64,000 nucleotides of DNA. Origin: Fodinicola acaciae (GTDB taxonomy: Bacteria; Actinomycetota; Actinomycetes; Mycobacteriales; HKI-0501). Each line of letters starts with the position of its first letter. Position 1 is the stretch's first letter. The notes under the pieces are model-generated. The model was not told the DNA's origin. It did not search any database and saw nothing but the letters and a program-made list of their open reading frames with translations. The stretch lies in assembly GCF_010993745.1 (NCBI RefSeq), contig NZ_WOTN01000002.1:620001-684000 (forward strand), given 5' to 3'. The translations under genes and the position numbers were made by a program. Below are positions 12,237-62,305 of this stretch, piece by piece.

Positions 12237-12267
12237 GGACGCACGCATGGTGGCCATGCGTGCGTCC
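12237..12267. terminator. Hairpin of the GCATGG-CCATGC family, copy H1
   Basis: GGACGCACGCATGG-tgg-CCATGCGTGCGTCC is a perfect 14-bp-arm hairpin between convergent genes. The same core recurs at 18854, 32566 and 60005. It probably acts as a bidirectional terminator. Confidence 0.6.
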
Positions 12268-60004: not shown

Positions 60005-60051
60005 CGCATGGCCACCATGCGTGCACTGGACGCACGCATGGTGGCCATGCG
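60005..60051. repeat. Hairpin of the GCATGG-CCATGC family, copy H4
   Basis: CGCATGGCCACCATGCGTGC and GCACGCATGGTGGCCATGCG are perfect 20-bp complements with a 7-nt loop. Unlike H1-H3 it lies between two genes on the same strand (icd and the CHAD gene), 12 bp before the latter's start, so it may separate them or occlude the start. Confidence 0.65.
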
Positions 60052-60062
60052 AACTTTTCTCG

Positions 60063-61568
60063 ATGGGGACCTACGAGCTGACGTTCGACGGATCGACGAC
60101 GTTGTTGGCTGCTCTGCAGCCGCTGGCCGGTGCGTACGCGCTCAGCGTCGGTCCGCGCAGGACCGCCACGATCGCCTATCTCGACACCGCCGACCGCCGG
60201 CTGCGAAAACGCGGCCTGACGCTGTCGTACGAGCGCTCCGCTGGCACCGGTGCGTTGGTGCTGGTCGACGCCGACGGCGCGCGTACGGTCACGCCGTTGC
60301 GCCAGGCGCCGACGCTCCCGGCGCTGGTCGACGCGTTGCCGGCTGGCCAGGTCCGGGACCTGGTGGCCGACGCGATGTGGATCCGCGCGGTCGCGCCGGT
60401 CGCGCGGTCGAAGCGGTCGTCACGGCAGGTCGCGGTGCTCAACGCCGACCAAAAGACGGTCGTACGCCTCGAATGGGTTGAGTCGAGCGCGGTCGAGCCG
60501 GTGCAGGCGCCGATGCCGCCGCGCGTCGAGATCCGGCCGCTGCGCGGCTATGACCGAGACGGCGACGCGGCCTCGCGGCTGCTGTTGTCGGCCAACGGCG
60601 CCGGCGGCTTCCGGCCGGCCGAGTCGACCGCCTACGACGACCTGCTCCGCCTCGCGCCGGCCGCCGCCGCGCGGCCGTCGCTGGAGCCGGGGATGCCGGC
60701 TGACCTGGCCGTCGCGACCGCGCTCCTCGGCTTCCTCGACGACCTGGAGGCCAATGTCGAGGGCACGATCGACGACGTCGACACCGAGTTTCTGCACGAT
60801 CTGCGCGTCGCCGTGCGGCGTACGCGGTCGCTGGTGAAGCTGGCCGGCGACGTGTTGCCGGCACGGTTGGTGGCCCGCTGCGGTCCGGGTTTCAAGTGGC
60901 TCGGCGATCTCACCACGCCGACCCGCGATCTGGACGTTTACCAGCTGGAGATGCCGAAACTGTCGGCCAGCCTGGCCGCCGGCGATCCGGCGGATCTGCG
61001 GCCGTTCGCGGCTTTCCTGCACCAGCAACGCACGTTCGAGTGGCGGAAACTGGTGCGCGGCTTGAAAACGCAGCGCTTCGCGACGTTGTGCGCCAGCTGG
61101 CGGTCGGGCCTGGCAGCGATCGGTGGGGCTGGTCGTACGGTCGACGAGCTGGCCGTCGAGCGAGTCGGCCAGACTTTCAAGCGTGTGCTGAGAAAGGCGC
61201 GTGCGATTACGCCTGACTCGCCATCGGAGGACGTGCACGCGTTGCGCAAGCGCGGCAAGGAATTGCGTTACGCGCTTGAGGTTTTCGGTCCGTTGCGGGG
61301 CGCCGACGCGACCAAGGAGGTCATCAAGGACCTGAAGCTGGTCCAGGACACGCTCGGCGAGTTCCAGGACGGCGAGGTGCAGGCCGCCGCGTTACGCGAT
61401 TTCGCCGGCAGGATGCCGAACCCGCCGGCCGTCACGCTGCTCGCGATGGGTGAGCTCGCCGCCGGTTTCGCGGCTCAGCAACGAAAAGCGCGCGCGGAGC
61501 TGACCGACCGGCTGGCGGCGTATCTCGGCGGTCGTACGCAGGCGCGCATCAAGGCGCTGCTGTCGTGA
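60063..61568 (+). CDS. CYTH-like plus CHAD domain protein
   Basis: This is a 501-residue protein. The N-terminal 190 residues resemble a CYTH/triphosphate tunnel domain (YLDTADRRLRKRGLTLSYER), although the usual ExExK start is reduced to TYELTF. The C-terminal CHAD domain (about 215-500) is helical, with paired positive patches: TEFLHDLRVAVRRTRSLVKL, DVHALRKRGKELRYALEVFG and LVQDTLGEFQDGEVQAAALR. CHAD domains bind polyphosphate and localise to its granules in studied bacteria. ATG 60063 lacks a ribosome site. The stop overlaps a ParA gene as GTGA, which is an unusual partner. Confidence 0.85.
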   Translation: MGTYELTFDGSTTLLAALQPLAGAYALSVGPRRTATIAYLDTADRRLRKRGLTLSYERSAGTGALVLVDADGARTVTPLRQAPTLPALVDALPAGQVRDLVADAMWIRAVAPVARSKRSSRQVAVLNADQKTVVRLEWVESSAVEPVQAPMPPRVEIRPLRGYDRDGDAASRLLLSANGAGGFRPAESTAYDDLLRLAPAAAARPSLEPGMPADLAVATALLGFLDDLEANVEGTIDDVDTEFLHDLRVAVRRTRSLVKLAGDVLPARLVARCGPGFKWLGDLTTPTRDLDVYQLEMPKLSASLAAGDPADLRPFAAFLHQQRTFEWRKLVRGLKTQRFATLCASWRSGLAAIGGAGRTVDELAVERVGQTFKRVLRKARAITPDSPSEDVHALRKRGKELRYALEVFGPLRGADATKEVIKDLKLVQDTLGEFQDGEVQAAALRDFAGRMPNPPAVTLLAMGELAAGFAAQQRKARAELTDRLAAYLGGRTQARIKALLS

Positions 61569-62305
61569 GAGTCGTCGCGTCGTACAACGTCAAAGGTGGC
61601 GTCGGCAAGACCTCCGCCGCGGTGAATCTTGCCTATCTGGCGGCCCGCGACGGCCGCCGTACGCTGCTGTGGGATCTCGACCCGCAGGGCGCGGCGACCT
61701 ACCTGTTCCGGGTACGTCCGCGGGTCAAAGGCGGCAGCGGCAAGCTGGTGGCCGGCTCTCGCGCCATCGCGGCCGGCCTGAAAGGCACCGACTTCGACGG
61801 TCTGGACCTGCTGCCGGCCGACTTCACCTACCGCAACATGGACATCGACCTGTCACACGAGAAAAAGTCGACGCGCGTGTTACGCCGGCTGCTCGACGGG
61901 GTCGCCGACGAGTTCGACCTGGTTTTCCTGGACACGCCGCCAAGCCTGTCGCTGGTCTCGGAAAACGTGTTGCACGCGGCCGACGTCGTGCTGGTGCCGA
62001 TCATCCCGACCGTGCTCGCGGTGCGGACGTACGACCAGCTCGTCGACTTCGTGGACTCCTTCGACGGCCGGCGACCGCGCGTGCACGGATTCTTTTCCAT
62101 GGTGGACCGGCGCAAAACCCTGCACCGCGAGATCATCGGCACGCTGCCCGCCGACCGTCCGGACGTGAGCGCGACCGGCATTCCGGCCCTGTCCGCGGTC
62201 GAGCAGATGGCGGTGCACCGCGCGCCGCTGCCGACCTTCGCGCCGCACAGTCCGGCCACTCGTGCGTACGAGCAGCTGTGGCGCGAACTTGTGCCGCTGC
62301 TGTAG
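61565..62305 (+). CDS. ParA-like ATPase coupled to CHAD protein
   Basis: This is a 246-residue protein. The deviant Walker A is YNVKGGVGKTSAAVNLAYLA, Walker A' region LWDLDPQGAATYLF, and Walker B LVFLDTPPSLSLVSENVLHA, as in ParA/MinD positioning ATPases with both signature lysine and aspartates. There is no parB, no centromere-like repeats nearby and no N-terminal helix-turn-helix. Its GTG overlaps the CHAD gene's stop, so the two are translationally coupled. By analogy with McdA and other orphan ParA proteins it may position a CHAD-coated cargo such as polyphosphate granules; this is inference. Confidence 0.85.
   Translation: MRVVASYNVKGGVGKTSAAVNLAYLAARDGRRTLLWDLDPQGAATYLFRVRPRVKGGSGKLVAGSRAIAAGLKGTDFDGLDLLPADFTYRNMDIDLSHEKKSTRVLRRLLDGVADEFDLVFLDTPPSLSLVSENVLHAADVVLVPIIPTVLAVRTYDQLVDFVDSFDGRRPRVHGFFSMVDRRKTLHREIIGTLPADRPDVSATGIPALSAVEQMAVHRAPLPTFAPHSPATRAYEQLWRELVPLL

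Follow-up and report, generated by a model that had tools for sequence, protein, structure and literature searches.

We describe a pair of adjacent genes in a 64,000-nucleotide stretch of the Fodinicola acaciae genome (contig NZ_WOTN01000002.1, positions 620,001 to 684,000; hereafter the window), encoding a CHAD-domain protein and a ParA-type ATPase. The two proteins are very probably functional partners, and their joint action on polyphosphate (polyP) is well supported, because the pairing, the gene order and the overlap of the genes are conserved, the polyP-binding and ATP-switch residues are kept, and Ppk1 occurs in the same genomes. By analogy to known systems, the likeliest function of the pair would be ATP-driven positioning of polyP granules, to which we give a probability of about 0.6. 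In its full form, which we hold with slightly better than even confidence, the proposal is that of a cross-phylum ATP-driven system that would position and partition polyP granules through a dead triphosphate-tunnel/CHAD adaptor that would attach to the polymer making up the cargo, not to a protein shell or DNA site.

The source genome is 8.86 Mb in four contigs. The CHAD open reading frame (ORF) runs from an ATG at 60063 to a stop at 61568; an in-frame GTG at 60021 would give a longer ORF, but it sits within a hairpin. The ParA ORF starts with a GTG at 61565 and stops at 62305, sharing the tetranucleotide GTGA with the CHAD stop, and this overlap, already read by the sequence-only reading, probably couples translation of the two genes. 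Both family assignments hold in Pfam: CHAD (PF05235) at E 1.9e-49 over residues 220-445, and AAA_31 at E 2.5e-34 for the ATPase. The window protein is the only full-length CHAD match of its genome, which holds one further weak partial match. Among the matches listed, the nearest named relative of the window ParA is that of Fodinicola feengrottensis (82%).

The pair is not peculiar to this genome, a doubt that the sequence-only reading had itself raised; it is conserved between phyla, in many cases down to the 4-base overlap. Our main sample came from a ParA profile search with one genome per species, from which the best 80 of at least 574 confirmed relatives were kept; it was thus chosen by ParA alone, blind to CHAD, and is biased to close relatives. 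In 74 of these 80 loci, the same-strand gene immediately upstream of ParA encodes a CHAD protein. The exact 4-base overlap is found in 49 of the 74 adjacent pairs and 69 are at most 30 bases apart, counts that depend on the rule by which ParA starts were set (the start codon closest to nine codons before the P-loop). By record titles, the 74 include Amycolatopsis, Prauserella, Actinoplanes, Solirubrobacter, Methylomonas, Methylotuvimicrobium, Sedimenticola and Candidatus Nitrotoga, together with metagenome-assembled genomes (MAGs) labelled Thermoanaerobaculia (Acidobacteriota) and Dormiibacterota, whose contigs may be misbinned. The CHAD-ParA pairing spans several phyla.

Other samples agree with this picture. 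They overlap one another and were therefore not summed: L006 and L020, and likewise L008 and L052, are almost the same on the tree, L041 and L095 have an upstream protein in common, and G460 and G461 hold L056 and L057. The window ParA was matched at E ≤1e-40 in 6 of 60 relatives, and tblastn placed a CHAD directly upstream in five of these six loci. Among 396 genomes of the same phylum, 18 score at least 265 bits against the ParA profile and 13 of these carry an adjacent CHAD; six further ParAs lie at 196-244 bits and the remainder at or below 158 bits, and none of the 12 loci inspected in the two lower-scoring groups showed a CHAD. The 265-bit cut was set after the scores were known, and a cut at 190 bits gives 13 of 24 with adjacent CHAD. 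In the class of Methylomicrobium sp. wino1, the ParA was matched at E ≤1e-60 in 44 of 274 genomes, and CHAD lies within 200 bases upstream in 28 of the 30 loci obtained (the other 14 matches gave no locus). In a 29th locus, G607, Pfam coordinates place a divergent CHAD upstream of the ParA and on its strand; since the local CHAD profile misses it, our CHAD negatives, plasmids included, are to be read as giving lower bounds. The genome of Methylotuvimicrobium buryatense 5G contains a single CHAD match, which is the one linked to ParA. As a control, no CHAD was seen beside ten ordinary ParA loci (four other ParA-type loci of the source genome and six generic loci of the phylum), one of which, L119, lies at a contig end where an upstream CHAD could not show.

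These counts bear on the simplest alternative, that the two genes are neighbours without shared function through operon hitch-hiking or chance. The window pair does stand in an unrelated neighbourhood, between an isocitrate dehydrogenase gene on the 5' side and a serine-hydrolase-like gene on the 3' side (both named by eye), as such an accident would have it; however, an upstream CHAD in 74 of 80 loci from several phyla contradicts this explanation, which we consider extremely improbable. No other neighbour is comparably frequent: within the limits of simple gene calling and short contigs, no further conserved operon member emerged from the 80 loci, the most frequent other family occurring in nine, with SixA-NUDIX-like genes in six and PstS-like genes in four (named by eye). 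Moreover, CHAD and ParA distances are correlated over the 54 pairs common to both alignments (r 0.81; largest of 1000 permutations, 0.18), a value explained in part by shared genome ancestry, which alone raises r.

The AlphaFold2 model of the 501-residue CHAD protein has a mean predicted local distance difference test score (pLDDT) of 95.5, and its top Foldseek match is the Chlorobium tepidum CHAD-polyP complex 6qva (TM score by target 0.90). The profile of ParA-linked CHADs aligns over nearly the entire C. tepidum chain (CtCHAD, UniProt Q8KE09; E ~6e-84). According to excerpts of PMC6537752, combined mutations at H253, R256, R260, R296 and R418/Y419 of CtCHAD reduced polyP binding. The window equivalents, mapped by hand via the profile alignment, are H245, R248, R252, R288, R402 and Y403, and they are conserved in 55, 54, 55, 55, 54 and 55, respectively, of the 55 aligned ParA-linked proteins, all of which match Pfam CHAD. 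This alignment holds 55 of 75 linked proteins (the 74 loci and the window) and the corresponding ParA alignment 56 of 81; both come from a 60-member list, filtered at 65% identity and at more than 350 residues on the CHAD side, from which hand editing removed five short CHAD sequences and four ParA sequences. Judged by these residues, the window CHAD protein very probably binds polyP granules.

The N-terminal part has no Pfam match, though its model resembles TTM/CYTH structures in Foldseek (for example 5a60, 2gfg and 7ns8), that is, the tunnel fold, which bears out the CYTH-like N-terminus proposed from sequence. CYTH/TTM hydrolases carry an ExExK metal motif. This motif is absent from the first 60 residues in all 55 aligned CHAD proteins, yet R108, K131, G162 and Y163 are invariant in the TTM part, which is therefore probably a non-catalytic domain that binds phosphate or a partner. 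An active CYTH phosphatase was rejected on the same count.

The ATPase is a small ParA lacking an N-terminal helix-turn-helix domain, with a P-loop that begins at residue 10. Its AlphaFold2 model (pLDDT 91.9) is closest to ParA-ATP 8ray (Z 32.4, root-mean-square deviation 2.1, 246 residues aligned) and Soj 2bej (Z 31.7, 1.9, 236); McdA 6non scores lower (Z 28.9, 2.3, 241), as does BcsQ (Z ~25). The residues of the ATP switch, namely the signature lysine K10, K15, D39 of Walker A' and D123 of Walker B, are present in all 56 aligned ParAs. In a quick maximum-likelihood tree (86 rows, L129 left out), 77 subfamily and borderline ParAs split from nine generic ParAs with a support of 100 in the Shimodaira-Hasegawa-like approximate likelihood ratio test, on a long branch; long branches, those of the borderline rows among them, call for caution here. 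The subfamily is also marked by the loop after the Walker A' helix, in which R49 (56/56), P52 (51/56), K55 (53/56), G56 (55/56) and G57 (56/56) are conserved. We infer that this loop is the counterpart of loop L23 of Helicobacter pylori ParA, because both lie at the same offset from the Walker A' aspartate. In the excerpted text of PMC11229316, L23 holds the ParB peptide and is poorly conserved across ParAs. The near invariance of the R49-G57 loop is as expected if members of the subfamily share one kind of partner.

Ppk1 was found in 21 of the 22 genomes tested, the source genome among them; the other 21 were chosen from the 80 loci, and the one lacking Ppk1 is a Sedimenticola MAG. No ParB lies near the pair, as had been noted from the sequence: the sole ParB_N match of the source genome is found on a separate contig (C4:589884-590165), next to another ParA (C4:590339-591079). 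A misplaced ParABS system was rejected on this ground. CHAD might instead report polyP status to ParA, and this ATPase, acting on the nucleoid or the chromosomal ParB, would feed it into chromosome segregation or division. The structural kinship to ParA fits this idea, as does the dependence of polyP granule position on chromosome replication and segregation in Caulobacter, related in excerpts of PMC13052382; with the ParB of the genome adjoining another ParA, and with so patchy a subfamily (265 bits or more in 18 of 396 genomes), as expected of a storage trait and not of core segregation, we consider it improbable. A known anti-phage system was also rejected: PADLOC gave no match to the CHAD protein at E 0.001 and two weak partial P-loop matches to ParA.

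Taking granule positioning as the preferred function, a mechanism may be outlined. The CHAD protein would coat or cap granules by binding polyP chains at their surface, as the kept residues and published CHAD work suggest. ParA, judged by its invariant motifs, would form ATP dimers and cycle between a nucleoid-held ATP dimer and a released form. Upon meeting ParA, granule-bound CHAD may stimulate hydrolysis, by analogy to McdAB and ParABS, so that the granule would trail the ParA gradient on the nucleoid and granules would be spaced or segregated, as in the diffusion-ratchet of carboxysomes. This chain would require binding between CHAD and ParA, binding of DNA by the ParA, and an effect on where granules lie as opposed to their number, size or turnover.

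Several observations weigh against it. Binding of ParA to the nucleoid would be its weakest step: the position of the PRNVR arginine (8ray, Thermus Soj) is mostly non-basic here (D, V, I, L, A), which leaves nucleoid binding unsecured. Basic residues are conserved elsewhere in the ParA alignment (R183 in 55, K184 in 53 and R219 in 55 of 56). The DNA contacts of H. pylori ParA, as given in excerpts of PMC11229316, are K199, K227, K230 and K247. The same excerpts describe stimulation of ParA through Lys/Arg in an N-terminal tail of ParB. A conserved basic tail of this kind was looked for in the 55 aligned CHAD proteins and not found, the window N-terminus being ordered in the model, so the ParB manner of stimulating ParA is missing and the pair is not a plain ParB copy. 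Of the simple adaptor-plus-ATPase system first suggested from the sequence, joint action on polyP is well supported, with polyP residues and ATP-switch residues kept and Ppk1 accompanying the pair; positioning or even partition of the granules is its putative part.

Gene neighbourhoods add to these points. The adjacent CHAD is missing in 6 of the 80 main loci: L037 and L054 begin at a contig end, and in L041, L048, L064 and L093 an upstream CHAD was not found. It is likewise missing beside five of the 18 phylum ParAs at 265 bits or more (four of the five genomes have CHAD elsewhere), and beside all six borderline ParAs at 196-244 bits. Among 13 genomes in which no CHAD was seen beside ParA, a CHAD match occurs in ten, in one of them adjacent after all, and three have none. 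The sixth relative locus, L009, has a different gene upstream and CHAD elsewhere in the genome. On plasmids, CHAD is adjacent in just two of the six records examined (from ten matching). Two actinobacterial ParAs, L095 and L096, overlap by 4 bases with a class V aminotransferase-like gene (by eye) instead of CHAD; it is possibly a second partner of the subfamily. L041 shares the aminotransferase-like neighbour gene with L095. Several members of the borderline group of the same phylum (L112-L117) adjoin a dihydrodipicolinate reductase-like gene (by eye), none having an adjacent CHAD. On the Marinobacter nauticus plasmid pMAQU02 (L127), a distant subfamily ParA lies near phbB (acetoacetyl-CoA reductase) and a pyruvate kinase gene with no adjacent CHAD, and a link of this ParA to storage of polyhydroxybutyrate (PHB) is conceivable.

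On two Paracoccus plasmids, the CHAD-ParA pair is followed by annotated CYTH and NUDIX genes (Table 1), an operon that also counts in favour of the proposed polyP module. In the actinobacterial locus L008, ParA is directly followed by a CYTH-type protein that starts with ExExK (by eye) and whose later part matches CHAD weakly (E 0.0036). BcsQ and FlhG act on a machine by regulating it, not by moving it, and the ATPase may similarly act as a regulatory switch that controls when CHAD binds polyP or partner enzymes, and thus granule nucleation, size or turnover. The metabolic contexts in Paracoccus and L008 speak for such a switch, as do a CHAD protein with no ParB-type tail and nucleoid-binding residues that are at most putative, the PRNVR-arginine position being mostly non-basic. 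The complete signature-lysine Walker A in 56 of 56 ParAs and a structure that BcsQ matches less well than Soj/ParA (Z 31-32) argue the other way, and we regard a regulatory switch as rather unlikely.

Table 1. Features of the CHAD-ParA locus (window coordinates) and of two extended plasmid clusters (coordinates in the named locus).
Feature	Coordinates	Strand	Evidence or remark
Pseudo-TTM and CHAD protein (501 residues), predicted adaptor of polyP granules	60063..61568	+	ORF, Pfam CHAD, AlphaFold2 model, Foldseek
N-terminal TTM/CYTH-fold domain, ~residues 1-200, without ExExK metal motif	60063..60662	+	Foldseek, alignment
CHAD domain, residues 220-445	60720..61397	+	Pfam
GTGA stop/start overlap	61565..61568	+	Read in sequence
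ParA-type ATPase, 246 aa, small form	61565..62305	+	Pfam, AlphaFold2 model, structure comparison
Deviant Walker A KGGVGKT with signature lysine K10	61592..61612	+	K10 and K15 in 56/56 aligned proteins
Subfamily-conserved loop R49-x-x-P-x-V-K-G-G57	61709..61735	+	Conservation in alignment
Hairpin between icd stop and CHAD ATG; dispersed genomic palindrome copy	60005..60051	.	Repeat search, folding
Extended CHAD-ParA-CYTH-NUDIX cluster, Paracoccus plasmid	L124 4484-7651		Small hypothetical gene precedes
Extended CHAD-ParA-CYTH-NUDIX cluster, Paracoccus plasmid, second CYTH	L126 4473-8249		Small hypothetical gene precedes

The hairpin upstream of the CHAD gene is a copy of a dispersed palindromic repeat, CGCATGGTGGCCATGCG, which often occurs as two inverted copies 30 bases apart that form a 47-base hairpin; in the window it is found at 12244, 18854/18884, 32566/32596 and 60005/60035. 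With up to two mismatches allowed, it was matched 190 times forward and 187 times in reverse in the genome, whereas its reversed control gave 6 and 4. The copy 5' of the CHAD gene has a folding energy of -49 kcal/mol (z -7.2) and is possibly the icd terminator; it lies outside the CHAD-ParA system.

ParA/MinD ATPases with several cargos are already published. A system close in logic is McdA-McdB, which positions carboxysomes and likewise pairs a ParA-fold ATPase with a protein that binds the cargo, there too a body in the cytoplasm. McdA, however, lacks the signature lysine (SGGQGKT, in excerpts of PMC9178275) where the window ParA has KGGVGKT, and the partner here is a folded TTM-CHAD protein with polyP as putative cargo. 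ParABS/Soj-Spo0J provides the nearest solved structures and sequences (8ray, 2bej), whereas the window ParA has no adjacent ParB, its partner gene encodes a polyP-binding fold and its clade stands apart from the nine generic ParAs. On the CHAD side, the nearest are CtCHAD (PDB 6qva, 6qv7 and 3e0s) and the phosins, and the ParA-linked CHADs are like CtCHAD in near full-chain alignment and in the six mutation-tested residues; polyP binding by CHAD is itself published, and CHAD proteins on polyP granules of Ralstonia eutropha are cited, in excerpts of PMC6537752, which mention no ATPase partner for CtCHAD. AlgP of Pseudomonas aeruginosa and PhaM/PhaF, compared by description, are also organisers of polyP or PHB granules (excerpts of PMC13052382 and PMC9239181); unlike the present pair, they are DNA-binding proteins, with no known ATPase in the review table as excerpted from PMC13052382.

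In the open-licence literature, bioRxiv excluded, none of the matches listed describes a CHAD-ParA pair by title or opening of the abstract, and it may have been mentioned earlier elsewhere. The main text of a 2023 Nature Communications survey of ParA/MinD ATPases (PMC10241942), as excerpted, names neither polyphosphate nor CHAD. Excerpts of a 2025 review (PMC13052382) give AlgP alone for polyP granules, with ATP dependence marked unknown, describe the proteins that place polyP granules in Caulobacter as unidentified, and call the energy cost of polyP and PHB granule localisation an open matter. The pair offers a concrete candidate, two genes carried by cultured bacteria, with which the question of granule placement can be put to the test. 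If the proposal is true, polyP would be added to the cargos of ParA, next to plasmids, chromosomes, carboxysomes and chemoreceptor arrays, and the CHAD protein would be a ParA cargo adaptor that directly recognises an inorganic polymer.
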